Of a DNA stretch of 36,746 bases, positions 15,526 to 35,566 are shown piece after piece (positions within the stretch are counted from its first letter, which is position 1; every line of letters begins with the position of its first letter). Below the pieces are notes generated by a model. The model did no database searches. It was not told the DNA's origin and was given only the letters and a program-made list of their open reading frames with translations. The position numbers and the translations under genes were made by a program. Origin of the DNA: Verrucomicrobiota bacterium (GTDB lineage Bacteria > Verrucomicrobiota > Verrucomicrobiia > Opitutales > Opitutaceae); assembly GCA_026398065.1 (NCBI GenBank), contig JAPLTR010000727.1:2586-39331 (forward strand), given 5' to 3'.

Positions 15526-15546
15526 GCTCCTACCCGTACCACCCCC

Positions 15547-16605: not shown

Positions 16606-16621
16606 GGCGGAGGCGTGGCGC

Positions 16622-18949
16622 TCAGGGACGGCGCGAGGCCTTCAGCCGCAGTCGCTCGGCTTCGTCGAAATGGTCCGCGGCCTCCAGGTTGCGGCCCAGC
16701 GAACGGAGGATCTGCGCGAGATTCGAGTGCGCATCGATGAAATCGGGGCGCAGCCGGAGGGCGTGCTGAAACTCCCCCACCGCCTCGGGCAGCCGGCCGA
16801 GCGTCGCCAGGGCCACGGCCAGATTGCCCCGGAGTTCGGGATCGTCGGGCGCCACGCGCACGCCGGCCTGAAACCGGGCCAGTGCCTCGTCCCACCGGCC
16901 CGCCTGCGCAAGGGCGTTGCCGAGGATCGCGTACGGCGCGGGGGCTGCGGGATCGAGGCGCACGACCTCCTCAAACTGGGCGATCGCCTCGGGCAGGCGG
17001 CCGGCGCGCGCGAGGGTCGCGCCATAGTCGTGACGGATCTTCGCGGAGCCGGGGGCGAACCGGACGGCCTCGGCGAAACTCGCCAGCGCGTCCGCCCGCC
17101 GGCCGGCGGCCTCGAGCGCCATGCCTCGGCTGCGGTGGGCCTCGGCAAAGTCCGGCTTGAACTTCAGCGCCTCGTCGTAGCGGGCGAGGGCCTCGGGGAT
17201 GCGGCCGAGGTTGCGGAGGGCGTTGCCCAGATTGCCGTGCGCCGCGGCATCGGTCGGGCTGATCCGGACCGCGCGCTCGAAACAGGCGAGCGCCTCGGCC
17301 GGACGGCCCCGCTCCATGAGCTCGCAGCCGAGATTGTTGAGCGCCGAGGCGTACTCCGGCTTCAGCTTCAGCGCCTGCTCATAATGCGCGATGGCCTCGT
17401 CGATCCGGCCGACGCTGCGCAGGGCGTTCCCGAGATTGTTGTGCACCTCGGGATAGTCCGGCTTCAGCCGGAGCGCGCGCTCCAGGAGCGGAATGGCCGC
17501 CGACGCCTGGCCGATGACGACCAGCTCGCAGCCGAGGTCGTTGTGGGTCGGCGCATCGTCCGGGCGAAGCTGGAGGCCGCGGCGAAAACAGAGGATGGCC
17601 TCGCGATGCCGCCCCTGCTTCATGAGGACGTCGCCGAGATTGGCCCAGGCCATGAAGGCCCCGGGATTCCGCTCGAGCGTGGCCCGCCAGAGCGCCTCGC
17701 TGCTCAGGTACTCCCGGGACTCGCGCCACGTCAGGACGGCGAGGGTCCCGAGCACGGCCGCGGGAAAGACCAGCCGAAAACGGGCGGCGGCGGCGGGCAG
17801 GCGTTCGCCCAGCCAGGCGAGCCCCGCTCCCGCCAGGGCCAGCGGGGCCATGCTCGCGAGGTATTGAAAATGGTCGCCGACGAAGGAATAGCGGAAGAAG
17901 TAGACGCTGAAGAAACCCAGGACCGGAAACAGCAACGCGCCGAAGAAAACCGCGGCGATCAACACCGGCCGCAGCGCCGTGCCCCGCCGCCACCAGAGCA
18001 GCGCCAACAACCCGAGAGCGGCGGCGAGCGGGGCAAAGGCCAGCGGGCTCGCGGTGTCGATCGACCACCGCGGATAGATGAAGATGAGATCGGCGGGCCA
18101 GACCAGTTTGCCGAGGTAGAACCAGAACACGCGACCCGCGATGGCGAAACGCTCCGGCCACGTCTGCGCCCACTCCGCGCCCTCCGCGCCGGAGTGGACC
18201 CGCTGCTCCCAGATCGTCCACCCAGCGGCGAGGGCGGAGAGCGCAAAAAAGGGTGCGAGCGACCCCAGATCCCGCCACGTGAGGCGCTCGCGACGCCACC
18301 AGGTGAGCAAGGCCAGCGCCTCGGGGAGCATGACGGTCGATGGTTTGCTGAGGATCGCGAGGCCGGCAAAGAGGAGGGCGAGCGCGCAGGGCCGGTGGCT
18401 GCGAGCGTCAGCGAGTGGCGGTCCGTCCACTCGCTCACGCTCGCGGCCACCCAATCCGATCCATCGCAGCCAGGCCCAGATCGCCGCCAGAAAGAACACG
18501 GCGGACTGGGTGTTCTTCAGTTCGCAGATCCAAGCGACCGACTCGACCTGCACGGGATGGAGCGCCCAGAGGGCCGCGCCGAGCCAGGCGCCGGGGACGC
18601 TCAGCAGCAGGAGCACGCGCCAGAGCAAGATCGCCGCGAGCGCGTGGCAGCCGAGGGTGACGAGGTGATAGCCGAGGGGATTGAGGCCCCAGAGCGCGTG
18701 CTGGACCCAGAAGTTCGTCAGGACGAGCGGGAAGTAGTTCGCCCGGGCGGAGGTCCAAATTTCCGTCAGGCCCAGTGGACCGATGATCGTCGGGTTGGCG
18801 GTGACGTGCAGATCGTCGTCCCACAGGAAATCGCCCCGCAGGGAGACCCAGTAGGCGGCGACGAGGGCGGCGACCAGCACCGCACCCAGCACGAACGGGC
18901 GCCCCAGGAGGGGACGGGCGGGCGGCGATTCGGAGCGGGGTGGACGCAT
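16622..18949 (-). CDS. Polytopic GT-C/TMTC-like glycosyltransferase with ten TPRs
   Basis: Integral membrane protein of 775 residues. I prefer ATG 18949 to the track's GTG at 18970. The N-terminal half (about 20-400) has around ten hydrophobic helices. The first loop carries FLWDDDLHVTANP, the acidic motif typical of GT-C glycosyltransferases that use lipid-linked sugars. ALHPVQVESVAWI further on is characteristic of TMTC/ArnT-like proteins. The C-terminal half is ten consecutive 34-residue tetratricopeptide repeats (NLGNALRxxGRxxEAxxxYxxALxLxP), likely periplasmic and protein-binding. The family adds sugars to proteins; the acceptor here is unknown. A 56-base palindromic element lies inside the gene and encodes the charged loop GRERERVDGPPLADARSHRP between two helices. 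The terminator of the upstream receptor gene ends about 25 bases before the start codon. Confidence 0.85.
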   Translation of the reverse strand: MRPPRSESPPARPLLGRPFVLGAVLVAALVAAYWVSLRGDFLWDDDLHVTANPTIIGPLGLTEIWTSARANYFPLVLTNFWVQHALWGLNPLGYHLVTLGCHALAAILLWRVLLLLSVPGAWLGAALWALHPVQVESVAWICELKNTQSAVFFLAAIWAWLRWIGLGGRERERVDGPPLADARSHRPCALALLFAGLAILSKPSTVMLPEALALLTWWRRERLTWRDLGSLAPFFALSALAAGWTIWEQRVHSGAEGAEWAQTWPERFAIAGRVFWFYLGKLVWPADLIFIYPRWSIDTASPLAFAPLAAALGLLALLWWRRGTALRPVLIAAVFFGALLFPVLGFFSVYFFRYSFVGDHFQYLASMAPLALAGAGLAWLGERLPAAAARFRLVFPAAVLGTLAVLTWRESREYLSSEALWRATLERNPGAFMAWANLGDVLMKQGRHREAILCFRRGLQLRPDDAPTHNDLGCELVVIGQASAAIPLLERALRLKPDYPEVHNNLGNALRSVGRIDEAIAHYEQALKLKPEYASALNNLGCELMERGRPAEALACFERAVRISPTDAAAHGNLGNALRNLGRIPEALARYDEALKFKPDFAEAHRSRGMALEAAGRRADALASFAEAVRFAPGSAKIRHDYGATLARAGRLPEAIAQFEEVVRLDPAAPAPYAILGNALAQAGRWDEALARFQAGVRVAPDDPELRGNLAVALATLGRLPEAVGEFQHALRLRPDFIDAHSNLAQILRSLGRNLEAADHFDEAERLRLKASRRP
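18395..18450. repeat. Palindromic REP-like element inside the glycosyltransferase gene
   Basis: Two 24-base arms (18395-18418 and 18427-18450) are reverse complements with two mismatches, separated by the 8-base loop CGGTCCGT. The arm core is GCGAGCGTCAGCGAGTGG. The 56 bases lie wholly within the coding frame without breaking it, in a region that encodes a hydrophilic loop between membrane helices. A perfect-length stem in a coding region is unlikely by codon use alone. Confidence 0.7.
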
Positions 18950-18974
18950 GCAGTGCGAAGTGGAGCGCACCGAT

Positions 18975-19002
18975 AAAAAAGCGCCAGCCCGAAGGCTGGC
19001 GC
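18975..19002 (-). terminator. Intrinsic terminator of receptor 1 (UUCG tetraloop)
   Basis: Read on the minus strand: GCGCCAGCC, loop TTCG, GGCTGGCGC, then six T. A 9-bp GC stem, a stable UUCG loop and a U tract make a textbook intrinsic terminator, 112 bases after the receptor stop. It ends about 25 bases before the glycosyltransferase ATG. Confidence 0.9.
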
Positions 19003-19064
19003 TGCGCAGGCGGAATCAAACCTGTCCTGGCGAGAAACCGCGACCTGCGCGGCGACGAAGCCTT

Positions 19065-19109
19065 CCAGCTGGATCGCCACGGCGCGCGTCGCGCGCCTCG
19101 CGATGACAG
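19065..19109. repeat. Dispersed-repeat-like palindromic sequence
   Basis: On the minus strand it reads CTGTCATCGCGAGG, then a GC-rich core, then CGTGGCGATCCAGC. The core GGCGCGCG-T-CGCGCGCC (19081-19097) is a perfect inverted repeat. The outline resembles the widespread bacterial interspersed repeat beginning GTCATTGCGAGG and ending GTGGCAATCCAG. It lies between the receptor 1 stop and its terminator. Only one copy is in this window, so repeat status is from memory of the motif. Confidence 0.5.
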
Positions 19110-19113
19110 AACG

Positions 19114-22100
19114 CTAGAACCGGCCGGCGACGCCGAACACCCAGCTCGCGCCGTATTCCTCCATCTGGCGGACGGCGGCGCCCTGACCTTCACGTTGGCC
19201 GGCGGGGGTCGCCATCCAGATATCGGGTTTGCCCGTGAAATTGCGCGCCTGCACGTAGAGCCGGTAGCGCGAGCTGAAGGTCCAGCCGAGCGAGAGGTCG
19301 AACTGCGTGAGCTCGCGGCGATACAGGCCGTAGGCCCCATCGGGACGGGCGGCGATCCAGACCATGCCGACGTTGCCGCTGAATTTCCGGTAGGTGTAGC
19401 TCAGGCGCGAGGAGATGCGATGCGGGGCCAGGCCGTTGCGGCGGACGCTCAAGTAGGAGCGGGTGTAGGAGACGTTAAAGCTGGTTCCGTTAAAGGGCTT
19501 CGGGAGGAAGCCGAGCTTTTGCGAGTAGGCGGCGGAGAGGCTGCGGTTGCGGCGGGTGCCGTTGCCGTTGCGGGTGGAGCGGAAGATGTAGTCCTTGAAA
19601 TCAGGGTCCGTCACCCCGAACTCTTCCGCAGTGTAGTCGAAGGTCTCGCGGAGGTTTTCCGTATTGACCTGCGTGCCGGTGAGGGTGGCCTGACCGGGGG
19701 ACTGCCCGCCGAAGTAGTAGGCGAAGCGGGCGTCGTAGCGGTCGATCTTTTCGGGCAGGAGGCCGGGATTCGGGGCGTCAACGCGATTGATGGTGCCAGC
19801 CGCATCCTCGACGATGGTCCAGACCCCGGTGAGGTTGTCGATCGGCGGCCGGCCGATCGCCTTGGTGTAACCGGTCTGGAAATCGAAATTGCTCAGAATG
19901 TTGTATTTCAAATTCACCGAGGGAAAGAGGTTGGTGTACTCGGACGTGCGCTTCACCTGCGGGCGACTCTGATACTGATACCGGACTCCGGCAAACGTCG
20001 TGGCACTCCCGGAGGTGTTGACGGGATAACCGGCCGCCACGATTTCGTCGCGGGTGCGGGGATCCCACTCCGTGGAGGCGATCTGGGTGCGTTCCCAACG
20101 CAGGCCGGCGACGGCGGTGAGTTTGTTCGTCACCCGCGTCTGTACCTGGCCGTAGCCGGCGGTGATGGTCTGCCGGATCTTGCGCTGATTGGTAATGGTG
20201 GTCGCGAGGTTGGCGGGGGTGCCGACATTCGTGAAGAGCTCGGGTTGCTCGTGGAAAAGGGTGGAGATCTGGTTGGCATTCGGCCGGCCGACCGTGGTCG
20301 GGAGCCCCGCCTGATTGAGCAAGGTCAGGGCGTTGGAGGCTCCCATGTCAAAGGGCTGCACGGCGACGAAGCCGAGCCGGGACCAGTTCCCGCTGCTGGT
20401 CGCGGTGGGAGTGCCGTTGACATCGCGGGTGACGGTATCGCCGCCGGGGCCGATGTAGCGCCAGACGGCCATCGCGTCGCCATTGCGATTGTTGCGGCTC
20501 TCCTCGGTCCATTTGCTGCCGAAGGAGACGACCGTGGGGAAGCGGGACAGGAAGGCGGGGGTCCAGCGGGCATTGAGCTGACCGGACCAGATGTCGGTGA
20601 TCCAGGTGCGGTCCAGATTTGTGACGGTGGTGCTGCCGGTCCAATTGGCGAGGTTGGCGGAATCGGGGCCGGAGGTCTGGCGAATGGTCCACTCGTAGGA
20701 CTCGGCACTCGGGCGGGTGGCCGCCCAACCAGCGGCGAGCGTGGTGGTGCCCGCCCCGGCGGCGAAGCCGCGCTCCAGGGCATCGTAATTGTTCACGGAG
20801 CGCGAATTGGAGGCGGAGCCGTCCACGGTGATGTTCGAGTACTTGTATTCGAACTTCTGCGCGAAGGTGCGGGTGTACGTGAGTTTGTCGCCGGGGCTGT
20901 TGGCGTAGGTGAAGGCAGGGACGGTGTTGGCGGTCGTGCGGGTGGCCGCGATGCTGGTGACGCCGTTGCCGACGAGACTGGGGCGGCCGTTATTGATGTT
21001 CGCGTTGTCGTTGGCCCCGACGAAGGTGAGCGTGCGGTTCCAGAATTCGGAGTCGGCATAGGTGTAGATGCCGGTGAAGGAGAGGACGAGGCGCGGGGTG
21101 GCCTTCCAGTCGGCGGTGAGCGTCGCGGCTTCTTTCACGACGGTGAGGGGACCGTCCTTGAAGGCGATCTGGCGGACGACCTGCGGACGGGGATCGGCGA
21201 CGGTGGAAGCGTTGCTGTAGGTGTTGGTCAGCAGGCGCTGCTCGGCATAGGAACTGGCCTTGCTCGCACTGGCCAGCAGGCCGAAGCGGTTGTTGAAAAA
21301 GGACTCGGCGTAATCGAGGGAGTAGTTGGGCTTTGCCTTCGACTCCTTGCCCTCGCGGTTGCCCCAGGTGCGGCTGGCGGTGAACTCCTCGTCGTTGAAG
21401 TTCATGCCGAAGTTGTAGGAGATGGAGCGGCCGCGGCGCTCGAAGGCGCGCTTGGTCTTCATGTTGATCGAGCCGCCGGGCGTATCGGCATCGGAGGCGG
21501 CGGTACGGGTGAAGTTCACCTCGATGGAATCGATGGCGTTGATGGAGAAGCCTTCGAAACTGGTGGCGCGGGAGGCGTCGCCGCCGCCGCGATTCGCATC
21601 GGCGCTGGCGGTGCGGATGCCATCGAAGGAGACGCCGACGTACTGGGACTCCATACCGCCGAGGGTGGGGCCGCGGGCCTGCGACTCGACGTAGTCGATG
21701 TCGACGCCCGGGAGGTATTTGAGAAATTCGCCGACGTTGCCATCGGTCACGTCGCCAAAGATGTCAGCCGAGACGGAGTTGCTGATGTTCATGCTGCGGC
21801 GCTGTTCCATGATGGCCTTGGAATTGCCCTCCCGCTCCGAGTCCACGGTGAAGGCCGCCAGTTGGACGACGCCGTCTTTTCTCACGGTTGGCTGGACGTT
21901 GTCGGTGCTGACGAGGTTGATCTCGCGCACGGCCGGCTGGCCGGCGGTGACCGTGAAGGACTCCTTCACGGTGTTGTAGCCCGAAAAGGTGACGGCGATG
22001 CCTGCCGGTCCGACCGCGACGTTGTTGAACTGAAACGTGCCGTCGGTCTCGGTGTAGGTCACCTGGTTGGTGCCATCGAGGCGCACCTCGGCGTTGGCGA

Positions 22101-22254
22101 CGTATTCCTTGGTCGCAGGATTATAAACGCGGCCCTGGATGGAGCCGGTCGCCGGGGCTTGGGCGCGGACGCAGAGGGTCGCAGCGAGCCAGCAGCAAAC
22201 GAAGGCGGTGAATCTCTGCCAATGCGGCAGCCGATGGTGGGTGGTGGTGGTCAT
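19114..22254 (-). CDS. TonB-dependent outer-membrane receptor 1
   Basis: Outer-membrane active transporter of 1046 residues. I start at ATG 22254 (MTTTTHHRLPHWQRF); the track's extra 165 residues cover the leader and the end of the neighbour. It has a signal peptide at 1-33, a carboxypeptidase-regulatory-like domain at about 36-115 (GSIQGRVYNPATKEYV), a TonB-box-like stretch VVQLAAFTV at about 126-134, a plug at about 145-290 (DGNVGEFLKYLPGVDIDYV, SINMKTKRAF), then the 22-strand-type barrel ending in Phe (WVFGVAGRF), the usual outer-membrane sorting end. No SusD-like lipoprotein is adjacent. Its C-terminal barrel is closest by eye to receptor 4, while its signal peptide and upstream sequence resemble receptor 2. 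An oligosaccharide ligand is inferred from the glycan-degrading neighbours. Confidence 0.93.
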   Translation of the reverse strand: MTTTTHHRLPHWQRFTAFVCCWLAATLCVRAQAPATGSIQGRVYNPATKEYVANAEVRLDGTNQVTYTETDGTFQFNNVAVGPAGIAVTFSGYNTVKESFTVTAGQPAVREINLVSTDNVQPTVRKDGVVQLAAFTVDSEREGNSKAIMEQRRSMNISNSVSADIFGDVTDGNVGEFLKYLPGVDIDYVESQARGPTLGGMESQYVGVSFDGIRTASADANRGGGDASRATSFEGFSINAIDSIEVNFTRTAASDADTPGGSINMKTKRAFERRGRSISYNFGMNFNDEEFTASRTWGNREGKESKAKPNYSLDYAESFFNNRFGLLASASKASSYAEQRLLTNTYSNASTVADPRPQVVRQIAFKDGPLTVVKEAATLTADWKATPRLVLSFTGIYTYADSEFWNRTLTFVGANDNANINNGRPSLVGNGVTSIAATRTTANTVPAFTYANSPGDKLTYTRTFAQKFEYKYSNITVDGSASNSRSVNNYDALERGFAAGAGTTTLAAGWAATRPSAESYEWTIRQTSGPDSANLANWTGSTTVTNLDRTWITDIWSGQLNARWTPAFLSRFPTVVSFGSKWTEESRNNRNGDAMAVWRYIGPGGDTVTRDVNGTPTATSSGNWSRLGFVAVQPFDMGASNALTLLNQAGLPTTVGRPNANQISTLFHEQPELFTNVGTPANLATTITNQRKIRQTITAGYGQVQTRVTNKLTAVAGLRWERTQIASTEWDPRTRDEIVAAGYPVNTSGSATTFAGVRYQYQSRPQVKRTSEYTNLFPSVNLKYNILSNFDFQTGYTKAIGRPPIDNLTGVWTIVEDAAGTINRVDAPNPGLLPEKIDRYDARFAYYFGGQSPGQATLTGTQVNTENLRETFDYTAEEFGVTDPDFKDYIFRSTRNGNGTRRNRSLSAAYSQKLGFLPKPFNGTSFNVSYTRSYLSVRRNGLAPHRISSRLSYTYRKFSGNVGMVWIAARPDGAYGLYRRELTQFDLSLGWTFSSRYRLYVQARNFTGKPDIWMATPAGQREGQGAAVRQMEEYGASWVFGVAGRF

Positions 22255-22287
22255 GGGTCGAGGGGTTGGTCCGGGAAGTTTCCACAA

Positions 22288-22305
22288 CGTCATCGTACGA
22301 TGACG
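22288..22305. promoter_or_regulatory. Perfect 18-bp palindrome in receptor 1 leader
   Basis: CGTCATCGTACGATGACG equals its own reverse complement over all 18 bases. It lies 34-51 bases upstream of the receptor 1 start codon, in noncoding DNA. It is a good candidate operator for a dimeric repressor; the GTAC centre does not match the usual CG-centred LacI sites, so I do not assign a regulator family. Confidence 0.65.
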
Positions 22306-22343
22306 GACGGAGGAGCGGAACGGACGTGGGAGACGGGGCAGGG

Positions 22344-22368
22344 TAAAAAATCGGCCGTCAGCGCCGAT
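22344..22368 (-). promoter_or_regulatory. Terminator-like hairpin in receptor 1 leader
   Basis: On the minus strand ATCGGC, a 7-base loop, GCCGAT and then a run of T. The 6-bp stem plus T tract lies about 90 bases upstream of the start codon, downstream of the block shared with receptor 2. It could be an attenuator; the short stem makes this tentative. Confidence 0.35.
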
Positions 22369-22373
22369 GATTC

Positions 22374-22412
22374 GCGGAAAGTGGGAAACAGTTCGGCGGA
22401 CAGCGCAAGTGC
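22374..22412 (-). promoter_or_regulatory. Upstream block shared with receptor 2
   Basis: On the minus strand GCACTTGCGCTG, then GAAC, then CCCACTT and TCCGC follow in the same order as at 25918-25955 upstream of receptor 2, at a similar distance (about 120-160 bases) from the start codon. This is probably the promoter or an activator site; TTGCGC could serve as a -35 element but no clear -10 follows. Confidence 0.5.
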
Positions 22413-22438
22413 TTTGATCACCCGGGCGTGGATCTGCC

Positions 22439-22468
22439 AAAAAAAAGCGCCAGCCCGAAGGCTGGCGC
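22439..22468 (-). terminator. Intrinsic terminator of receptor 2 (UUCG tetraloop)
   Basis: The stem and loop are identical to the receptor 1 terminator: GCGCCAGCC-TTCG-GGCTGGCGC followed by eight T on the minus strand, 74 bases after the receptor 2 stop. Confidence 0.92.
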
Positions 22469-22541
22469 CGAACCCCGCGTCCGACGGGAAGAGAAGACCG
22501 GTGCCGCGCGAAACCAATCGCCGAGCACCGGCGGCGATCAC

Positions 22542-25500
22542 TCAGAAGCGACCGCGGACACCGAAGATCCAGTTGTCGCCGTACTCCTCCATGTGGCGGA
22601 GGTGCTTGCCGACGCCCTTCGCGGCGCCCGGAGGCGTCTCGTAGCGCAGATCCTTTTGATTGGTGGGATTGCGGACCTGGAGGAAGGCCGTCGCGTAATT
22701 GCTGAGCTTCCAGGTGAGCGAGCCGTCCCACTTGGTCATCGCGCCCCAATAGCGGTAATTGACGCCGTCGATCGGGCGGTCATCGACCCAGATGAAGCTG
22801 ATGTTACTGCCGAAGCGACGGTAGTTGTAGCCGAAGCGGCCGGTCCAGCGGTGCGGCGCGAGGTTGTTGCGGATCTGGTTGGCGTACGAGCGGGTGTAGG
22901 TCGCGCCGACGTTGATGCCGCGCAGGTACTCGCTCTGGAGGAAGCCCAGGGTCTGCTGGTAATTCAACTCCATGTTCTTGTAGCGCTGCAGGCCGGGGAC
23001 ATTGGAGCGGACGTTGAACGTGTAGTTGGTGAAGTCGGGATCATCGACCCCGAACTGGGCCGCCGTCATCGTGACCGTCTGGATGAAGTTCTTCGTCTCG
23101 ACCATGTTGAACTGAGCGGTGAGCTGGCCGTTGGAACGGCCGCCGAAGTAGTAGGCGAGGCGCGTCTGATAGGACTTCAGGTACTCGGGGAGCAGATTGG
23201 CATTCGGGGTGGAGACGGTGAGCCCGTTGTCGTTGATGACCCAAAGGCCGGTGACATCGTCGACCCCGGGGCGGGAGATGCCCTTGTTGCCGCCCGCCTG
23301 CCACTCGAGATCCTTCGTGATCTGGTACTTGAAGACCGCCGAGGGGAAGAAGTCCGTGTAGCTGCCGCGGCGGGTCACCATCGGGTTGGTCTCAAACATC
23401 GTGCGCATGCCCTCGAAGGTCGTCGGGCGGCCGTTGTTGGTGCCGGGAGCGTTGAGCGGGACGTTCAGCGCAAGCAACTGGGCGCGGGTGAGCGGATCGC
23501 GCTCGCGATACTTGCCGAGGGTCTGCTCGACACGGGCCCCATAACGGAGCGTCAGCTTGTTGGTGATGCGGGTGTCGGCCTGCCAGTAGCCCGCATTGAT
23601 CGTCTGCACGAAGCGACGGGGGTTGGCGTATTCCTTCGTGTAGAGGTTTTCCGGGGTCGAGGTGTTGACGAAGAGCTCGGGGTGAGCGTGGAAGAGATTG
23701 GCCACTTCGGAACGGCTGACGCGCGGCGGGGTCTTCTCCTGGCCGTTGAGGCCGATGAAGTGCACGGAGTTGGTCGTGCCGTCGCCGAACGGGAGCGGAG
23801 AAATGTACTGTGGGCCGACATTGGCCCAGTTGCCGAAAGCGGTGTTGGTATAGACGCCGGTGGTGGCGTTGCGGGTGACGGTATTGCCGCCGGGCCCGAT
23901 GTAGGACCAGATGTCCATGTCGGAATCGGTGCGGTTGTACCGGTTCTCCGCGTCCCACTTGGCACCAAACTTCATCACCGTGGGAAATTTTTCGAGCCAC
24001 GGCATCACCCAGCGGGCGTTGACCGCCGCCGTCCACTTGGTCGTAAACCAGGTGCGGTTGTCGTTGTTGACGCGGGTGCCGCCCGAGCGGGTGTTGGTAT
24101 CGGAGTAGTTGCGCAGGTCAGTCCAGTCGGCGCCCTCGGTCTGGCGAACCGTCCACTCCCACGACTGGGCGTTGGGCCGGGTCATAACAAAGCCGGCAGG
24201 CATCGAGCCGCCCTCGCTGTTGATAAAGCCGCGCTCGATCGACTCATAGTTGTTCTGCGACCGGGCCCAGGCGAGGAAACCATCGAGGGTCCAGCGACCG
24301 TTCTTGTACTCGAAGCGCTCGCCGAACTGGCGGGAATAGGTCAGCTTGGCGGAGGAGCCGCCACCGTTGCCTATCGCGGCGACGCCGTTGTTGAGCACCG
24401 TGCCGTTGACGGCGCCGGTGGCCGCGCCCGTGTTGCGGGGCGCAACGAGCGTGAGAATGCCGTCGCCGCCGACCGTACCGCGGCCGTTGAGGGCGTTCTG
24501 GTTGTCGTTGGCGAGCGTCATGTCGAAACTGCGATTCCAGAAGTGACCCTCGAAATAGCTGTACGACATGTTGGTCGAGAGGACGAGGCGCGGGGTGGCC
24601 TTCCAATCGGCGGTCAGGAGCAGCGCGTCCTTGATGATGAACTTCGGACCGTCGCCGAAGCTGACGGAGCGGATCACCATCGGGCGCGTGTCGATCGGTC
24701 GGTTGAGCGTGGTGCCGGGCCCGACCGTGGCCGCCGTCTCCACACCACGGTTGTAGTTGATCGTCTGGGACAACTGCTCGGTGTAGGAAGCGCCATGGCT
24801 CGCGCTGAGCAGGATGCCGAACCTCTCGTTGAGGAACGACTCGGCGTAGTCCGCGGACCAGTTGGGCATCCACTTGTATGACTTCCAATTGTCCACGCCG
24901 TCCTGGATACCGGGCTGCTTCTTCAGGGTGAACTCCTCGCCGTTCATGTTGACGCTGTAGCTGTAGCTGAAGGCGCGGCCCTTGCGGTCGAAGGCGCGCT
25001 TCGTCTTCATGTTGATCGAGCCTGCCACGGAGTCGGCGTCGTTCTCGGGACTGGCCGTGCGGTTGATCTCAATGGACTCGACGGAGGTGATGGAGAAGCC
25101 CTCGAAGCTCGTCGCGCGGGAGGCGGCGCCGCCACCGCGGTTGGCATCGGCGTTGGCCGTGCGCATGCCGTCCATCGCCACACCGACATACTGGGTGTCC
25201 ATGCCGCCGAGGCGCGGGCCGCGGGGCTCGGACTCGACGTACTCGAGGTCGACACCCGGGAGATATTTGAGGAACTCGCCGACGTTGCCGTCCATCACCT
25301 CACCGAAGATGTCGGAGGAGACGGCCGTGATGATGTTCATGTCCTTGCGCTGGGCGGCGATCGCCTTCGAGTTGCCCTCGCGCTGGGAGGAGACCGTGAA
25401 GGCCTCAAGCTTCACCGTGCCATCCTTGCCGATGGCCGAGGGCAGAGTGGTGGCCTGGACGTTGATCTCACGGACCGCCGGCTGCCCCGCGGTCACATTG

Positions 25501-25793
25501 AAAGACTCCGTGACGGTGTCGTAACCCGAGTAGACAATCGTGATGGTGGCGGGACCGGCCGGCACATCCATAAGGCTAAACGAGCCGTCCTGCGCCGAGT
25601 AGACCACCTGGTTCGAACCCTGGAGACGGATCTCGGCGTTGTTGACGTATTGTTTGGTGGCCGGGTTGTAGACCCGGCCTTGGATCGAGCCTGTCGTCTG
25701 GGCCGAGACCGAGAGGACAGCGGCAAGCCAGCAGCAGGCGAGCGCGACAAATCGCCGCCAAGATGACGGCATAGTTTGGGTGGTGGGTGTCAT
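22542..25793 (-). CDS. TonB-dependent outer-membrane receptor 2
   Basis: Paralogue of 1083 residues, started at ATG 25793 (MTPTTQTMPSSWRRF). It has a signal peptide at about 1-31 with CCWLAA as in receptor 1, a regulatory-like domain at about 33-113, the TonB-box-like TVKLEAFTV, and a plug containing DIFGEVMDGNVGEFLKYLPGVDLEYV. The last barrel strands read VRNPTNQKDLRYETPPG and EEYGDNWIFGVRGRF, nearly the same as receptor 3 (VRNPTNQKDLYYES). Loops in the middle of the barrel differ clearly from the other three, as expected if ligands differ. It has its own leader (425 bases to receptor 3) and terminator, so it is probably transcribed alone. The ligand is unknown. Confidence 0.93.
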   Translation of the reverse strand: MTPTTQTMPSSWRRFVALACCWLAAVLSVSAQTTGSIQGRVYNPATKQYVNNAEIRLQGSNQVVYSAQDGSFSLMDVPAGPATITIVYSGYDTVTESFNVTAGQPAVREINVQATTLPSAIGKDGTVKLEAFTVSSQREGNSKAIAAQRKDMNIITAVSSDIFGEVMDGNVGEFLKYLPGVDLEYVESEPRGPRLGGMDTQYVGVAMDGMRTANADANRGGGAASRATSFEGFSITSVESIEINRTASPENDADSVAGSINMKTKRAFDRKGRAFSYSYSVNMNGEEFTLKKQPGIQDGVDNWKSYKWMPNWSADYAESFLNERFGILLSASHGASYTEQLSQTINYNRGVETAATVGPGTTLNRPIDTRPMVIRSVSFGDGPKFIIKDALLLTADWKATPRLVLSTNMSYSYFEGHFWNRSFDMTLANDNQNALNGRGTVGGDGILTLVAPRNTGAATGAVNGTVLNNGVAAIGNGGGSSAKLTYSRQFGERFEYKNGRWTLDGFLAWARSQNNYESIERGFINSEGGSMPAGFVMTRPNAQSWEWTVRQTEGADWTDLRNYSDTNTRSGGTRVNNDNRTWFTTKWTAAVNARWVMPWLEKFPTVMKFGAKWDAENRYNRTDSDMDIWSYIGPGGNTVTRNATTGVYTNTAFGNWANVGPQYISPLPFGDGTTNSVHFIGLNGQEKTPPRVSRSEVANLFHAHPELFVNTSTPENLYTKEYANPRRFVQTINAGYWQADTRITNKLTLRYGARVEQTLGKYRERDPLTRAQLLALNVPLNAPGTNNGRPTTFEGMRTMFETNPMVTRRGSYTDFFPSAVFKYQITKDLEWQAGGNKGISRPGVDDVTGLWVINDNGLTVSTPNANLLPEYLKSYQTRLAYYFGGRSNGQLTAQFNMVETKNFIQTVTMTAAQFGVDDPDFTNYTFNVRSNVPGLQRYKNMELNYQQTLGFLQSEYLRGINVGATYTRSYANQIRNNLAPHRWTGRFGYNYRRFGSNISFIWVDDRPIDGVNYRYWGAMTKWDGSLTWKLSNYATAFLQVRNPTNQKDLRYETPPGAAKGVGKHLRHMEEYGDNWIFGVRGRF

Positions 25794-25885
25794 GGGGGTA
25801 AAGTGACCAACCCTTCCGGGTGCAAACACGCCACGCAGTGGCAGTCTGGGGTTCGGGCGGGGTGGTGGGGAAAACCGAAGGGGTA

Positions 25886-25912
25886 AATTAGAGACACTAA
25901 TTGCAGCTAGTG
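25886..25912. promoter_or_regulatory. AT-rich overlapping inverted repeats in receptor 2 leader
   Basis: AATTAG-N5-CTAATT (25886-25902) overlaps CACTA-N8-TAGTG (25895-25912). This AT-rich island in GC-rich DNA, about 95-120 bases upstream of the start, may be the promoter core or an operator. On the minus strand TTCACT and TAATTT with an 18-base gap would be a weak sigma-70-like pair. Confidence 0.4.
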
Positions 25913-25917
25913 AATCT

Positions 25918-25955
25918 GCGGAAGAAGTAGGGAGTTCAACGTGCAGCGCAAGCGC
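25918..25955 (-). promoter_or_regulatory. Upstream block shared with receptor 1
   Basis: This is the counterpart of 22374-22412: on the minus strand GCGCTTGCGCTG, GAACT, CTACTTCTTCCGC. CTTGCGCTG is identical in both and flanking bases are largely conserved although the surrounding leaders differ. Confidence 0.5.
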
Positions 25956-26013
25956 ATAAATAACCAAAAATCGAACACTCATAAAAATGAACGCCGGCTC
26001 ACGGGCTCCTCGG

Positions 26014-26027
26014 TGAAAACGTTCTCA
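26014..26027. promoter_or_regulatory. LacI-family-like operator
   Basis: TGAAAACGTTCTCA is a 14-base palindrome with a single mismatched pair, centred on CG, the form of CcpA/GalR-type operators. It lies about 220 bases upstream of the receptor 2 start and beyond the receptor 3 terminator. In this 425-base gap I otherwise see the shared block, the AT-rich repeats and the terminator, and no gene. Confidence 0.4.
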
Positions 26028-26125
26028 TTCATCGCCAGTTAGCCACGTCATCCACTGGCGTTCGGCGTGCCGTCGTTTCGGTCGGTCGTGGAACCGGAAC
26101 GCCAACCCTGGCCGCGAGCGGGCAC

Positions 26126-26156
26126 AAAAAAGCGCCAGCCGGTGATGGCTGGCGCT
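26126..26156 (-). terminator. Intrinsic terminator of receptor 3
   Basis: On the minus strand AGCGCCAGCC, loop ATCACC, GGCTGGCGCT, then a T run: a 10-bp stem. The stem sequence is the same as in the receptor 1 and 2 terminators but the loop differs. It begins about 60 bases after the stop. Confidence 0.9.
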
Positions 26157-26217
26157 CGAAATCAGATCGAAGAGGTTCGGTCCGCGTTCCGGAGAAGGCG
26201 GCGCCGAGCGTTCCGGC

Positions 26218-29200
26218 CTAGAACTGCCCTTTCACCCCGAACACCCAGTTGTCGCCGTATTCCTCGGTGCGGCGCAGCACCATCCGCTTCGGATCGTTGG
26301 GATAGGACTCATAGTAGAGGTCCTTTTGGTTCGTGGGATTGCGGACCTGGAGGTAGAGCGAGGCATACTTCGTCAGGCGCCAGCTGGCGGAGATATCCAG
26401 CTTCGTATTCGCACCGATGAAACGGTAGCTCAGGCTGTCGACGATCCGGTCATCGATCCAGATCGCACCGACCCGGCCACTGAAGCGCTTGTAGTTATAG
26501 CTGAGGGAGGCGGTGGCCCGATGCGGCGCGAGGTAGTTGCGCTGCTGGTTCGCGTAGGACCGGCTGTAGGTCACACCGACTCCCAAACCCTTCAGATACG
26601 GGCTGGGCAGGAAGCCCAGCGTCTGCGTGTAGTTGAAGTCGAAATTCCGGTACTTCTGGGGCGCCGGATCGTTCGTCTTCGAACTGAAGGTGTACGCCGC
26701 GTAGTCGGGATCGTCGACGCCGAACTCCGCGGCGGTGAACGTGTGGGTCAGGGTGAAGTTCTTGCCCTCGTCCTGGATGAAGGCGAGCGACACCTGGCCC
26801 GGCGCCTCGTTGCCGAAGTAGTAGGCCACACGCGTTTGCATGACGGTGTGATACTCGGGCAGCAGGTTGGGATTCGAGGTCGTGACCGTCTGATTGGCCT
26901 CGTTCACGTTCCAGAGGCCGGTGAGATCGTCGAGATTGGGCCGGGAGATGGACTTGTTAAAGCCGGCCTGCCACTCGAGATTCCGCAGGATCTGATACTT
27001 GGCGACGACCGAGGGGAACCAGGTGAGGTAGTCGGAACGGCGGGTGACCATGGGCTGGCTCTCATACTGGTATCTCAAACCGTCGATGGTGTTGGCCCGG
27101 CCGTTGTTGGTGGTGACGGGATCGGCCGTGTAGCCGGCTGCGAGCACCTGGGCGCGGGTCAGTGGATCGAATTCCCGAAACGCATTCTTCGTTTGCTCGC
27201 CACGGACGCCAAACAGGAGGCGCAGCTTGGAGGTGAGACGCGTGTCGAACTGGGTGTAGCCGGCGTTGACCGTCTGCACGATGTGCTTCGTATTGACATA
27301 ATTCGCCGTCCAGAAATTCGTCGGCGTCACCGTGTTCACAAACAGCTCCGGATGGGCGTTGAACAGGTCGGCGATGGCCGAGCGGCTCACCCGCGGCATC
27401 TGCGCCTCGACGCCGTTGACGCTGATGGTGTGCAGGATGTTCGTCGTGCCCGTGTCAAACGGCAGGCCGGAGACGAACTGCGGGCCGACGTTGGCCCAGT
27501 TGCCGAAGGTCGCGTTCTGATACACCTTGGTCGTGGCGTTCTGGACCACCGTGTTGCCGCCCGGCCCGATGTAGGACCAGGTGTTCTGCGGCGTATCCGT
27601 GCGATTGTTACGGGTCTCCTCATCCCATTTGCCGCCGAACTTCACCGAGGTCGGGAAACGCTGGAGGAACGGCACCACCCACTTGGCATTCAGGTTGCCG
27701 GTCCATTTTTCGGTGATCCAGAGTCGGCCCTCGTTGTTGGCGCGCGTGCCGCCGGTGCTGACATCGGTGCTGGTCCAGTTGCGGAGGTCGTTCCAGTCCG
27801 CCCCGGAATTCTGCCGGATCACCCATTCCCACGACTGCTCATGGGGCCGGGTGGCGGTCCAACCGCCGGCCACGCCGCCGCCCTCGGAAGCGGCGAGTCC
27901 CCGCTCCAGGCCCTCGTAGTTGTTCAGCGACTTGGAGAAGCCGAAGGCGCCGTCCACCACCAGCCCGCCCACCTTGTACTCGAACCGCGGGACGTACTGG
28001 CGGTTGTAGACGAGCTTCACGAAGTCTCCGCCGCCACTGTTCACCGTGGACACCGTGGAGGTGGTGGTGCGGGCAGGCGCGACGACGGTGAGGAGGCCGT
28101 CCCCGCCGACGGTGCCGCGGCCGTTGTTCACGTTCGCGTTGCTGTTGGCGGCAATGAAGGTGAAGTTCCGGTTCCAGCACTCCCCCTCGTAATAGCTGTA
28201 GATGAGATTCAGGGAGAGGACGAGGCGGGGCGTCACCTTCCAGTCGGCGGTGAGGAGCAGCGAATCCTTGACGATCAGCTTGGGGCCGTCGCCCACGTCG
28301 ATCTGGCGCATCACCATCGGCCGTGGGTCGGCGGCCGTGGGCGAGCGGTTGTAATCCATCGTGACCTGGTGCTGCTCGGTGTAGGAATCCGCATGGGAGG
28401 CGCTCAGCAGGATGCCAAAACGGTTGTCGAAAAAGGACTCGGAATAGCCGAGCGAGTAGTTCGGCTTCCATTTGTAGCTCTTCTCGCCCGGATGATCGCG
28501 CAGCCCCGGCGTCTTCCGGAGGGTGAATTCCTCGGCGTTGAAGTTGACGCCGTAGTTGTAGTCGAAGCGGCGGCCCTTCCGGTCGAAGGCGCGCTTGGTC
28601 TTCATGTTGACGGAGCCTGCCGGCGAGTCGGCGTCATTTTCGGGGCTGGAGGTGCGGTTGACCTCGATCGAGTCGATGGCGGTGATGGAGAAGCCCTCGA
28701 AGCTCGTGGCGCGACCGGCCGCTCCGCCGCCGCGCAGGGCGTCGGCACTGGCGCTGCGCATGCCGTCGAAGGCGACGCCCACATACTGGGAATCCATGCC
28801 ACCGAGGCGCGGACCGCGCACCTCGGACTCCACGTAGTCCAGGTCGACGCCGGGAAGGTATTTCAAAAATTCGCCGACATTGCCGTCCGTCACGTCGCCG
28901 AAGATGTCGGAGGAGACCGAGGTGCCGATGTTCATGTTGCGCCGCTGGGCCATGATCGCCTTGGAGTTGCCCTCGCGGTCGCTCGAGACGGTGAACGCGG
29001 CGAGTTGAATGACCTCGGCGCCTTTGGCCGCGACTTCGGCACTCGTGAGATTGATCTCGCGTACCGCCGGCTGCCCCGCCGTCACCGTAAAGGATTCCTT
29101 CGCGGGAGTGTAACCGGTAAAGTTGACTGTGAGGGAGGCCGAGCCGACCGGAACATTCTCAAAGCGGAAGGATCCGTCGCTCTCGGTGAAGGTGACCTGA

Positions 29201-29382
29201 TTGGTGCCGTCCAGCCGTACTTCGGCGTTGCCGACATATTCCTTGGCGGCCGGGTTGTAAACCCGGCCTTGGATCGACCCGGTCGCGGCGGCTTGCGCAT
29301 AAAGCCCGCTGGCGAACAGCCAGCCGAGGGCAAAGATCAAAGCCGGCCAGAAGAGCCGGGGGCGTTGCTTGGTAGTTTTCAT
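26218..29382 (-). CDS. TonB-dependent outer-membrane receptor 3
   Basis: Paralogue of 1054 residues from ATG 29382 (MKTTKQRPRLFWPALI). It has a signal peptide at 1-30 (ending LYAQ), a regulatory-like domain at about 33-113 (GSIQGRVYNPAAKEYV), the TonB-box-like VIQLAAFTV, a plug with DIFGDVTDGNVGEFLKYLPGVDLDYV, and a barrel ending NWVFGVKGQF. The mid-barrel segment REFDPLTRAQVLAAGY matches receptor 4 (REFDPLLRAQVLAAGY), whereas the C-terminal strands match receptor 2. An inverted repeat lies about 40-60 bases upstream of the start. There is a separate terminator and no SusD gene. An oligosaccharide ligand is inferred only from context. Confidence 0.93.
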   Translation of the reverse strand: MKTTKQRPRLFWPALIFALGWLFASGLYAQAAATGSIQGRVYNPAAKEYVGNAEVRLDGTNQVTFTESDGSFRFENVPVGSASLTVNFTGYTPAKESFTVTAGQPAVREINLTSAEVAAKGAEVIQLAAFTVSSDREGNSKAIMAQRRNMNIGTSVSSDIFGDVTDGNVGEFLKYLPGVDLDYVESEVRGPRLGGMDSQYVGVAFDGMRSASADALRGGGAAGRATSFEGFSITAIDSIEVNRTSSPENDADSPAGSVNMKTKRAFDRKGRRFDYNYGVNFNAEEFTLRKTPGLRDHPGEKSYKWKPNYSLGYSESFFDNRFGILLSASHADSYTEQHQVTMDYNRSPTAADPRPMVMRQIDVGDGPKLIVKDSLLLTADWKVTPRLVLSLNLIYSYYEGECWNRNFTFIAANSNANVNNGRGTVGGDGLLTVVAPARTTTSTVSTVNSGGGDFVKLVYNRQYVPRFEYKVGGLVVDGAFGFSKSLNNYEGLERGLAASEGGGVAGGWTATRPHEQSWEWVIRQNSGADWNDLRNWTSTDVSTGGTRANNEGRLWITEKWTGNLNAKWVVPFLQRFPTSVKFGGKWDEETRNNRTDTPQNTWSYIGPGGNTVVQNATTKVYQNATFGNWANVGPQFVSGLPFDTGTTNILHTISVNGVEAQMPRVSRSAIADLFNAHPELFVNTVTPTNFWTANYVNTKHIVQTVNAGYTQFDTRLTSKLRLLFGVRGEQTKNAFREFDPLTRAQVLAAGYTADPVTTNNGRANTIDGLRYQYESQPMVTRRSDYLTWFPSVVAKYQILRNLEWQAGFNKSISRPNLDDLTGLWNVNEANQTVTTSNPNLLPEYHTVMQTRVAYYFGNEAPGQVSLAFIQDEGKNFTLTHTFTAAEFGVDDPDYAAYTFSSKTNDPAPQKYRNFDFNYTQTLGFLPSPYLKGLGVGVTYSRSYANQQRNYLAPHRATASLSYNYKRFSGRVGAIWIDDRIVDSLSYRFIGANTKLDISASWRLTKYASLYLQVRNPTNQKDLYYESYPNDPKRMVLRRTEEYGDNWVFGVKGQF

Positions 29383-29418
29383 GTGTAGCGGTGTTTTCGG
29401 GGGCGCAAAAGCCCGCGG

Positions 29419-29443
29419 AGGTCGTCCGAAAAACGGACCACCT
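29419..29443. promoter_or_regulatory. Inverted repeat in receptor 3 leader
   Basis: AGGTCGTCCG and CGGACCACCT are 10-base arms (one mismatch) around AAAAA, 37-61 bases upstream of the receptor 3 start. Candidate operator or leader hairpin. The rest of the 279-base spacer shows no recognisable terminator for receptor 4. Confidence 0.45.
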
Positions 29444-29661
29444 TCGGAAGGCTCCCGCACGTAGGGTTCCCCGTGGTTGACCACCATCATAGTCCAAACC
29501 CGCTGGCGCGGCTCAGCATCGCTTGCGTGAGTGTGCGCGCGGATTGCGCGGCTCCTCGACGGCGGGCAAAGTGCGCTCGCGGCCCACTCCCGCACCAACC
29601 GGTCTGAGCCCGCCGCTCACGCGTCGCGATGGGTGCGCCCGGCGGTGGACGCGCCGCCGCC

Positions 29662-32600
29662 TCAGAACTGCCCTCTCAGGCCGAGGACCCAGTTGGCCCC
29701 GTATTTCTGCATTTCACGCAGGTAGCGGTTCTGGCCCTCGACCGAGCCGGTGGGCGACTCATACCAGAGCACGGGCATGCTGGTGATGTTGCGGCCCTGG
29801 ATGTAGGTGGTGAGCCGGCTGTTCAGCTTCCAGTTCAGGGAGAGGTCAAACTGCGTGAGCTGACTCGCGAAACGGCCATAGACCCCGGTGTCGCTGGGGG
29901 TGTCGGGGCGCCAGACCATGCCGAGGGAACCGCTGAATTTCTTGTAGCTGTAGCTAAGGCGGGAGGAAACGCGATGCGGGGAAAGGCCGCCGCGGCGCTC
30001 GCTGGCATAGGCGCGGGTGTAGGCGACGTTGTAGCCGATGCCACGGAGCACTTCGTAGGGGAGGAAACCGAGCGTCTGGTTGTAGGACCACTCCATGGTG
30101 CGGAATTTGCGCATGTTCGCGCTGTTGCGGGTGGCCCGGAAGGTGTAGCCGGAGAAATCGGGGTCATCCACCCCGAACTCGGCGGCCGAATAATCGAACG
30201 TCTCGCGCAGATTGGTGATCTCGGTCTGCGAAAGGTCGACGGTGAGCTGTCCCGGGGAGCGGCCGCTGAAATAATACGCCAGCCGGGCCTGGTATTTCTT
30301 GGTGAACTCCGGCAGCAGCGCGGGGTTGGGCGCGGAGACGCGGGAGTTGACCTCGTCGACGACCCACAGGCCGGTGAGGTTGTCGATGGGCGGGCGGGAG
30401 ATGCCCTTGTTGAAGCCGGTGTGAAACTCGAAATTGCGCAGGATATTGTATTTCGCGGTCACGGACGGAAACCAGTTGCGGTAGGAGGAGTGCCGCGTGA
30501 TCCGCGGCTGGCTCTCGAACTGATAACGCAGGCCCTCCAGCGTCTGTGCCCGCCCGCCATTGGTATTGGCGGCATAAACGGCGTAGCCGGCGGCGAGCAC
30601 CTGGGCGCGCAGGAGGGGATCGAACTCGCGGACAGCATTCTCGGTTTCCTCCAGGCGCACGCCGAAGCGAACCTGCAGCTTGGAGGTCGGGCGGGCGTCG
30701 AACTGCGTGTAGCCGGCCTTGACCGTCTGCCGGAAGAAGCGGGGGCTGGCGTAGTAGTCGGTGTAGTAGTTCTCGGGCGTGGCCGTATTGACGAATTGTT
30801 CGGGATGCGCGTGAAACAGGTCGGCCACGGCATAGCGGTTGACGCGCGGCGGCATGCCCTGCTCCCCATTGATATTGTAAACCGTGAGGGCGTTGGTCGT
30901 GCCCATGTCAAAGGCGTGGGGGGAGACAAACTGGGGTCCGACGTTGGCCCAGTTGCCGTAGGTCACGTTCTCGATGGCACCGGTGGTGGGGTTGACCCGC
31001 ACGGTGTTGCCGTTCGGCCCGATATAGGACCAGATCTGGGTGTTGTTGTAGCCCCGGTTGTCGCGGTTCTCCTCATTCCACTTCCCGCCGAACTTCAGGG
31101 ACACCGGAAATTTCCGGATCGGGAGAACCCACTTGGCATTGAGCTGGCCGCTCCAGATTTCAGTCACCCAGAGGTTGGTGCTGTTGTCGGCCCGGGTACC
31201 GCCATTGCGAGCATTGTTGTTGGTGAAGCTGTGAAGGTCGAACCAGTCAGGGCCGGAGGTCTGGCGGATGGTCCACTCCCACGACTCGGCATGCGGACGG
31301 GTCGCCGTCCAACTGCTGGCGACACCGCCGCCCTCGGAACTGATGAACGCGCGTTCGAGGGCTTCGTAGTTGTTGACCGAGCGCGAAAAGCTGGCCGCGC
31401 CATCGACCAGCCAGCTGTCGACCTTGTATTCAAACCGGGGTGCGAAAGTGCGGGTGTAGGTGAGCTTCGAGGCCGAGCCATCGCCGTTGTTCACGGTGGC
31501 GACGTTGTTGGTCTTGCTGGTCGCGGTGCTGCCGCTCGAGACGCGCGTGGCGACCACGTTCAGCAGACCGTCGCCGCCGACGCTGGCGCGGCCGTTCGCG
31601 ACGGTCGCGTTGGAGTTGTCGTTGGACGCAACCCAGGTGAAGCTGCGGTTCCAAAACTCCCCCTCGGTGTAGGTGTACATGGCGTTGAAGGACAGCACGA
31701 GCCGGGGGGTCGCCTTGAAGTCGGCGGTGAGCAGCAGGGAGTCCTTCAGGATGAACTTCGGGCCGTCCTTGAAGAAGAGCTGGCGAACCACCAGGGGACG
31801 CGGGTCGTTCGCATTGGGTGTGCGCTGGTAGTCCGCACGGGAAATGTACTGCTCGGTGTACGATTCGGCGTGGCTGGCGCTCAAGAGAATGCCCAGCCGC
31901 TGGCCCATGAATGCCTCGGCGTAGTTCAATTCATAGTTCGGCTTGACCTTGGATTCCTTCTTGTCCGTCGGGCCGTAGGTCTTGCTGAGGGTGAACTCCT
32001 CGTCGTTGAAGTTAAGACTGGTGTTGAAGCCGTAGTGGCGGCCCTTCCGGTCGAAGGCGCGCTTGGTCTTCATGTTGATCGTGCCGGCGGGGGAATCGGC
32101 GTCGGATTCGGGGCTGGTGGTGCGGCTGACTTCGATTGACTCGATGGCGGTGATGGAAAACCCCTCGAAACTGGTCGCGCGGGAGGCGTCGCCCCCACCG
32201 CGGTTGGCGTCGGCACTGGCCGTGCGCAGGCCGTCGAAGGAGACGCCGACATACTGACCCTCCATGCCGCCGAGCCGCGGGCCGCGGGCCTCGGACTCGA
32301 CATAGTCGATGTCGACCCCCGGGAGGTATTTGAGGAATTCGCCCACATTCCCGTCGGTGACGTCGCCGAAGATGTCGGACGAGACCGAGGTGGAGATGTT
32401 CATGTTGCGCCGCTGATCCATGATGGCTTTGGAGTTGCCCTCGCGCTCGGAGGACACGGTGAACGCGGCGAGTTGGACCACGCCGTCGGAGGACTTGGTC
32501 GGCGTGAGCGCGGCGGAGCTGATGAGGTTGATCTCGCGCACGCTGGGCTGACCGGCGGTGACGGTGAAGGACTCCTTCACCGTGTTGTAGCCGGTGTAGG

Positions 32601-32862
32601 TGACCGTGATGGCGGCGGTGCCGGCCGGGACGTTGGCAAATTGAAACGAGCCGTCATTCTCGGTGTAGGTCACCTGATTGGTGGCATCGAGACGCACCTC
32701 GGCGTTGCGGACGTATTCCTGGCTGGCGGGGTTGTAGACCCGGCCCTGGATCGTGCCCGTGGCCGCGGGCTGGGAGAAAAGTCCGGCGGTCGTGAGCAAC
32801 CAGCCGAGGACGACGACAAAGATCGACGCGATTCGCCGATGGTTTCCTAGGGTGTTTTTCAT
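29662..32862 (-). CDS. TonB-dependent outer-membrane receptor 4
   Basis: Paralogue of 1066 residues; the track start is kept because MKNTLGNHRRIASIF opens a good signal peptide (1-31, ending LFSQ). It has a regulatory-like domain at about 34-115 (GTIQGRVYNPASQEYV), the TonB-box-like VVQLAAFTV, a plug with DIFGDVTDGNVGEFLKYLPGVDIDYV, and a barrel ending NWVLGLRGQF. The C-terminal third matches receptor 1 (NLRETFDYSAAEFGVDDPDF against NLRETFDYTAEEFGVTDPDF; QLTQFDLSLNW against ELTQFDLSLGW), but the mid-barrel matches receptor 3. It is first in transcription order and divergent from the GH95 gene, sharing a 220-base regulatory region with it, which ties it most directly to fucosylated or L-galactosylated glycans. 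Confidence 0.93.
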   Translation of the reverse strand: MKNTLGNHRRIASIFVVVLGWLLTTAGLFSQPAATGTIQGRVYNPASQEYVRNAEVRLDATNQVTYTENDGSFQFANVPAGTAAITVTYTGYNTVKESFTVTAGQPSVREINLISSAALTPTKSSDGVVQLAAFTVSSEREGNSKAIMDQRRNMNISTSVSSDIFGDVTDGNVGEFLKYLPGVDIDYVESEARGPRLGGMEGQYVGVSFDGLRTASADANRGGGDASRATSFEGFSITAIESIEVSRTTSPESDADSPAGTINMKTKRAFDRKGRHYGFNTSLNFNDEEFTLSKTYGPTDKKESKVKPNYELNYAEAFMGQRLGILLSASHAESYTEQYISRADYQRTPNANDPRPLVVRQLFFKDGPKFILKDSLLLTADFKATPRLVLSFNAMYTYTEGEFWNRSFTWVASNDNSNATVANGRASVGGDGLLNVVATRVSSGSTATSKTNNVATVNNGDGSASKLTYTRTFAPRFEYKVDSWLVDGAASFSRSVNNYEALERAFISSEGGGVASSWTATRPHAESWEWTIRQTSGPDWFDLHSFTNNNARNGGTRADNSTNLWVTEIWSGQLNAKWVLPIRKFPVSLKFGGKWNEENRDNRGYNNTQIWSYIGPNGNTVRVNPTTGAIENVTYGNWANVGPQFVSPHAFDMGTTNALTVYNINGEQGMPPRVNRYAVADLFHAHPEQFVNTATPENYYTDYYASPRFFRQTVKAGYTQFDARPTSKLQVRFGVRLEETENAVREFDPLLRAQVLAAGYAVYAANTNGGRAQTLEGLRYQFESQPRITRHSSYRNWFPSVTAKYNILRNFEFHTGFNKGISRPPIDNLTGLWVVDEVNSRVSAPNPALLPEFTKKYQARLAYYFSGRSPGQLTVDLSQTEITNLRETFDYSAAEFGVDDPDFSGYTFRATRNSANMRKFRTMEWSYNQTLGFLPYEVLRGIGYNVAYTRAYASERRGGLSPHRVSSRLSYSYKKFSGSLGMVWRPDTPSDTGVYGRFASQLTQFDLSLNWKLNSRLTTYIQGRNITSMPVLWYESPTGSVEGQNRYLREMQKYGANWVLGLRGQF

Positions 32863-32915
32863 GGGGGTAGTTGGCTTGAGCTGGTCAGGGAACGAGCACT
32901 AGACCGGGAAGCGGA

Positions 32916-32970: not shown

Positions 32971-33082
32971 GGGCCATCCGCGGCCTGAAGCTCGCCATCG
33001 GTTGTCCGAAAGTGTGCGTGCATTGCACCATGCTTGCCTGCCACGCCGCCCCGCGACACGTCTATGCGGTCCGTCGCCATCC

Positions 33083-35560: not shown

Positions 35561-35566
35561 TCTCAC

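Follow-up and report, generated by a model that had tools for sequence, protein, structure and literature searches.

Four tandem TonB-dependent receptors of old, separate lineages, with discordant signal-peptide leaders, in an Opitutaceae genome

The window (the whole stretch of DNA analyzed, 36,746 nucleotides) carries four related TonB-dependent receptor genes, R1 to R4, whose bodies follow one tree, from which their signal-peptide leaders depart. The receptors represent four old and separate lineages, and orthologues of every one occur in other species. We think it probable that the array is part of a conserved carbohydrate-uptake locus evolving by birth and death, through turnover of whole genes and swapping of leaders. 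Ordinary homologous recombination between paralogues at conserved edges would add, remove, or replace receptors and leaders, and the receptors would import related oligosaccharides containing fucose- or galactose-type residues without a SusD partner, a substrate suggested by the neighboring GH95 and GH2 enzymes and by the literature on TonB-dependent carbohydrate utilization (CUT) loci (PMC5615132). The turnover of whole receptors between species at a single locus is a more informative result than the mosaic pattern that an earlier note, made from the sequence of the window, had proposed.

The receptor array and its host

The window lies on contig C262 of a fragmented metagenome-assembled genome (MAG) of the Opitutaceae (Verrucomicrobiota; 7.2 Mb in 1004 contigs, 89.5% complete, 5% contaminated), and the named relatives of the host are Opitutaceae/Opitutae. 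The four receptor genes stand head to tail, all on the minus strand and transcribed in the order R4, R3, R2, R1, and each encodes CarboxypepD_reg, plug, and barrel domains, as expected from the earlier description of four tandem TonB receptors. Pairwise amino acid identities among them are 50 to 61%; the open reading frame of R1 opens at 22749, and its signal peptide starts at 22254. The array and its principal neighbors are as follows.

33002..35560, plus strand: glycoside hydrolase of family GH95, transcribed divergently from R4; left flank that recurs in relatives
29662..32862, minus strand: receptor R4 (1066 aa), first in transcription order; signal peptide, CarboxypepD_reg, plug, and barrel
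26218..29382, minus strand: receptor R3 (1054 aa)
22542..25793, minus strand: receptor R2 (1083 aa)
19114..22254, minus strand: receptor R1 (1046 aa), transcribed last; a long-stemmed lineage
16622..18970, minus strand: membrane protein with many TPR repeats, immediately downstream of R1; right flank that recurs across Opitutaceae
12334..15423, plus strand: GH2 beta-galactosidase-like enzyme, a conserved neighbor
9591..10631, plus strand: O-methyltransferase, a conserved neighbor (81 to 82% in L031, L037, and L040)

The plug domain (PF07715) exceeds its curated cut-off in all four receptors, and the barrel (PF00593) does so in R1 to R3 when proteins are scanned singly (R4 reaching 20.9 bits against a Pfam cut-off of 27) and in R1 to R4 in the scan of the genome, where about 80 barrel-family matches occur. 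A PDB search by sequence returned only a weak match, to a CarboxypepD-like domain. The AlphaFold model of R4 (mean pLDDT of 70, with a poorly modeled plug region) has the predicted fold of a TonB-dependent barrel, the best 50 PDB matches listed for it all being TonB-dependent transporters, with E values down to 4e-24. All four proteins match the NCBIfam model TIGR01782 (TonB-Xanth-Caul) over nearly their full length (E of about 1e-66 to 1e-76), but their scores of 252, 224, 256, and 244 bits fall under its curated cut-off of 310.

Like the SusC/SusD polysaccharide utilization loci of Bacteroidota, the array combines an N-terminal CarboxypepD domain, ahead of plug and barrel, with glycan-related neighbors; unlike them, it belongs to a genome without a SusD family protein, as both PF07980 and PF12771 are absent beside the receptors and across the whole host genome, which upholds the prior view of these genes as receptors without SusD. 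Another parallel is provided by the CUT loci of freshwater Verrucomicrobia, in which TonB-dependent receptor genes accompany glycoside hydrolases for fucose-containing and other polymers (PMC5615132). The window likewise has GH95 and GH2 genes by its receptors, an association recurring in other genomes, but it differs in that as many as four related receptors form a tandem at a single conserved site, where the receptor content varies between species. Among the main open reading frames of the window that were scanned or read, no inner-membrane sugar transporter or CUT-type regulator was recognized near the array.

GC-rich hairpins followed by runs of T lie 3' of R3, R2, and R1.

26130..26157, minus strand: terminator hairpin after R3, GAGCGCCAGCC-ATCACC-GGCTGGCGCTT TTTT
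22446..22469, minus strand: terminator hairpin after R2, the point from which the window is collinear with genome G006 in the R1 region
18980..19003, minus strand: terminator hairpin after R1, sharing 28 identical nucleotides with the hairpin after R2

Since no such hairpin follows R4, the predicted transcription units are R4-R3, R2, and R1, and we infer at least three transcripts. The exact hairpin (CGCCAGCC-loop-GGCTGGCG plus a T run) occurs seven times in 38 genomes searched, each time after a receptor of this family, and variants with compensatory changes exist in other genera. A covariance model of the hairpin, run on 95 genomes, places its top 14 matches behind family receptors without exception, most of these sites having served to train the model; weaker matches are ordinary terminators with similar GC-rich stems. 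Two other readings of the hairpin, as a new family of RNAs and as a signal for mobility, were rejected in view of these ordinary terminators and the lack of any Rfam match in the window, and we regard it as an inherited terminator marking the 3' edge of the gene.

Ancestry of the receptor bodies

Each of the four receptors has counterparts elsewhere: R1 in L031 (88%) and L032 (87%), R2 in L036 (78%), L043 (72%), and L057 (70%), R3 in a clade with L075 and an own-genome sequence (82 to 85%), and R4 in L031, L037, L039, and L043 (76 to 78%), which form a clade of their own with it. The own-genome sequence is a fifth member of the family, an R3-type receptor standing alone at C236:4422-7068 and C59:1-645 (L144 and L145), probably one gene split by a gap; it may represent either a second copy or contamination, this MAG being 5% contaminated. 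Genome G008 also has a stand-alone R3-type receptor.

Repeated duplication is supported, and for R1 to R4 these orthologue clades refute duplication of a recent kind. A scenario in which local tandem duplication was recent and rapid diversifying selection came after it, with neither old lineages nor exchange, would account for the head-to-tail arrangement and for a pair of sister receptors in L058 that arose by local duplication, but it is very improbable for R1 to R4, each of which is nearer to receptors of other species than to its array-mates and whose synonymous sites are saturated. Moreover, predicted strands and loops of the barrel vary to the same degree; loop hypervariability was sought in the barrel and none was seen, and there is thus no sign of a diversification system based on hypervariable loops.

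The earlier note held that the receptors had repeatedly recombined or undergone gene conversion, leaving signal, mid-barrel, and C-terminal segments on different trees. For the bodies (CarboxypepD domain, plug, and barrel), we find instead a single tree with accumulated divergence and without swapped segments. Among 70 informative four-taxon sites, 42 unite R1 with R4 and R2 with R3 (14|23), 18 support 12|34, and 10 support 13|24, and the types of site follow one another at random along the protein, conflicting sites showing no clustering (P = 0.47). When orthologues of R1, R2, R3, and R4 type are added (a 14-taxon set used for topology tests by segment), 14|23 leads overall by 87 lnL units; in each segment from residue 36 to the C terminus it is either the best topology or statistically tied with the best, and none of these segments rejects it. 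Trees of the full family built from residues 36 to 860 and from residue 866 to the end are congruent: both recover the R1-, R2-, R3-, and R4-type clades and a 22-member group containing R2 and R3 (support of 100 in each). The comparison by segment that had been proposed as a check thus leaves 14|23 best or tied throughout the body, and only the signal block has a different tree.

The C-terminal pairing of R1 with R4 and R2 with R3 reported from the window is real, and the same pairing is the best one from the CarboxypepD domain onward.

29662..30267, minus strand: C-terminal block of R4 (residues 866 to 1066), with homologous blocks in R1 to R3 forming R1/R4 and R2/R3 types

The C-terminal segment strongly rejects the rivals of 14|23, which other body segments reject weakly or not at all; the C-terminal signal is strong because the branch dividing the R1/R4 and R2/R3 groups is three to four times longer in this block (0.166) than elsewhere (0.051). 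Import of the R2/R3 C-terminal block from outside the family was also considered and set aside: these blocks are nearer to group I than they are to distant receptors and give the same tree.

The mid-barrel resemblance of R3 and R4, which had been taken to mark shared ancestry, does not do so: the motif concerned, REFDPL.RAQVLAAGY, is family-wide, occurring also in receptors outside the R3 and R4 types, and the segment favors 14|23. Windows of identity among the four receptors alone are misleading, in that R3 and R4 seem closest over much of the protein because the branches of R1 and R2 are longer. More generally, when four paralogues are examined without their orthologues, an appearance of mosaic ancestry can arise from unequal rates (here, rapid evolution of the C-terminal block, the long branch of R1, and conserved motifs).

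Gene conversion among R1 to R4 fares no better. Four-fold synonymous identity among them is about 0.5, near the expectation from base composition and the level of most orthologues; these sites are saturated within and between genomes, so recent conversion is not seen, and a search for conversion tracts among R1 to R4 found none. The longest GENECONV-like run between R3 and R4 (42 nt, P = 0.002) lies at the conserved end of the plug, where R1-R3 and R1-R4 identities peak as well, and we read it as conservation. A chimeric origin of R3 is suggested by bootstrap, which places R3 with L050/L053 in the N-terminal half (99%) and with R2 in the C-terminal half, but receives no support from AU tests of the partner shift (p of 0.19 to 0.23); one old recombination in the R3 lineage is conceivable.

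Ancestry that changes segment by segment is thus unlikely for the array. It accommodates the separate tree of the signal block, the locally highest identity of R3 and R4 in the mid-barrel, the bootstrap shift of R3, and the chimeras of related species described below, but no body segment rejects 14|23, the two long-region trees are congruent, the R3 conflict is not significant by AU, and synonymous similarity within the genome is not in excess. The pattern of similarities recorded earlier was itself largely right; its mosaic interpretation holds for the leader only. Separately, five outgroup receptors (L055_2381, L059, L060_363, L073, and L089) show conflict between N- and C-terminal trees with high bootstrap, and older recombination among them is possible.

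Signal-peptide leaders and chimeric receptors

The leaders pair as had been described, R1 with R2 (68% nucleotide identity) and R3 with R4 (64%), on a tree that differs from that of the body.

22144..22254, minus strand: R1 signal-peptide block, pairing with R2 and with a history unlike that of the body
25689..25793, minus strand: R2 signal-peptide block, pairing with R1 and nearer to R3/R4 orthologues elsewhere than to most R2 orthologues
29278..29382, minus strand: R3 signal-peptide block, pairing with R4
32758..32862, minus strand: R4 signal-peptide block, pairing with R3

The further upstream block said to be shared by R1 and R2 does exist (131 nt at 69%) but consists mainly of the terminator of the preceding gene and the region of the start codon and signal peptide. 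With the chimera L097 removed beforehand, the signal block (about 126 nt) rejects monophyly of the orthologue groups (delta lnL of 62.5, AU of 0.0006), and it rejects the R2-, R3-, and R4-type clades individually (p < 0.04). Body windows of the same size accept the orthologue clades in four of five cases, the exception being residues 84 to 122 (AU of 0.004). The departure of the leader from the body tree is therefore established, and part of the conflict may be homoplasy, since signal peptides are short and fast-evolving.

Two receptors of related species switch partners along their length. In L097 (genome G003), the leader is identical to that of the R2-type receptor L034 at 148 of 150 nt (99%) up to about residue 51, after which identity to L034 drops to about two-thirds; the middle of the body belongs to a lineage other than R2-type, and the last codons, the terminator, and the downstream DNA match the R2-type L057 at about 91% and 87%. 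In L067 (genome G001), identity is about 90 to 95% to L034/L070 up to about residue 115 and then about 90% or more to L031. The switch points fall in conserved stretches (IQGRVYNP, TAGQPAVREINL, and the C-terminal EYG.NW motif), and the edges of the chimeras lie after about residue 51, near residue 115, and in the last 6 to 17 codons up to the terminator. Because both sequences come from MAG contigs, misassembly is possible. As to the recombination originally proposed for this array, the signal-peptide block and these two chimeras thus speak for it, and the bodies of R1 to R4 do not.

Receptor turnover between conserved flanks

Across relatives, the locus has a shared order of GH95, receptors, TPR protein, GH2, and methyltransferase, and the number and kind of receptors vary. 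In other Opitutaceae, the flanking genes accompany, partly or jointly, one, two, or three receptors; the contigs of these relatives are often too short for the whole locus and, like all loci compared, derive from MAGs. In the window, the flanking genes accompany four. The comparison of copy number and chimeras proposed in the earlier note thus turned up, across related species, a varying number of receptors and two chimeras. On contig C49 of G006, a GH95 remnant is followed by an R4 remnant, an X-type receptor, an R4-type receptor, R1, and then the TPR, GH2, and methyltransferase genes. In the interval separating the R4 position from R1, X and a further R4-type gene of G006 therefore occupy the place of R3 and R2 in the window. 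The R4 remnant comprises the last 130 codons and is 74% identical to R4 of the window and 67% identical to other R4-type genes; collinearity between the window and the R1 region of G006 starts at the R2 terminator (22468). On the same contig, the C-terminal remnant of GH95, on the opposite strand, adjoins the R4 remnant (L149:8174-8976), as a single deletion would leave them.

Receptor order is mostly collinear between genomes (X, R4, R2/R3, R1, TPR gene), which would suit a stable ancient array subject to lineage-specific losses only, with fast evolution or homoplasy behind the leader conflict and assembly artefacts behind the chimeras; that signal peptides are the most variable part of the protein (entropy of 2.43, versus 1.32 in the barrel) would suit it too. 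We nevertheless hold such stability to be quite improbable, given that the L097 leader is all but identical to an R2-type leader and its body is not, that L067 changes partner sharply near residue 115, that the order is reversed in L038, and that R3-type receptors also occur on their own.

Birth and death with whole-gene turnover and leader swapping, the reading we prefer, might take a more specific form. Tentatively, the locus could be a receptor-exchange site, in which whole receptors serve as cassettes, with intact bodies, between the fixed flanks of GH95 and the TPR protein. A cassette would be bounded at its 5' end by the leader (from the signal peptide to about residue 51 or 115) and at its 3' end by the last codons and the terminator hairpin specific to the family. 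Homologous recombination at such edges would let lineages swap, drop, or gain receptors. If so, the Opitutaceae would provide, in versions of this locus that carry from one to four receptors, a natural series for relating receptors to substrates. More broadly, the locus shows how receptors for glycan uptake vary in a bacterium that lacks SusD partners: entire receptors change at a single conserved place, and barrel segments are not shuffled. Our literature search found no paper on recombination between tandem TonB receptors of this kind.

The notion of a swappable set of receptors accordingly applies to whole receptors when species are compared, given that the receptors enclosed by these flanks differ, but not to switching within a genome: no inverted repeats of at least 24 nt were found at 16600 to 35600, which makes switching by inversion unlikely. 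The phase-variable, invertible surface loci of Bacteroidales (PMC12118408) are similar in comprising sets of alternative surface proteins but differ in that the array in the window is without inverted repeats and its variation is seen between species.

A sulfatase at 10641 to 12140 has no close homologue beside the receptors of the relatives examined, and the protein at 15487 to 16605, encoded between GH2 and the array, which gives weak matches to Mala_s_1-like and arylsulfotransferase models, does not accompany the locus in those relatives. At the far end, two tandem proteins with VPDSG-CTERM sorting signals, 58% identical to each other, are encoded at 39 to 860 of the window and upstream of it at contig positions 1475 to 2365 (L147).
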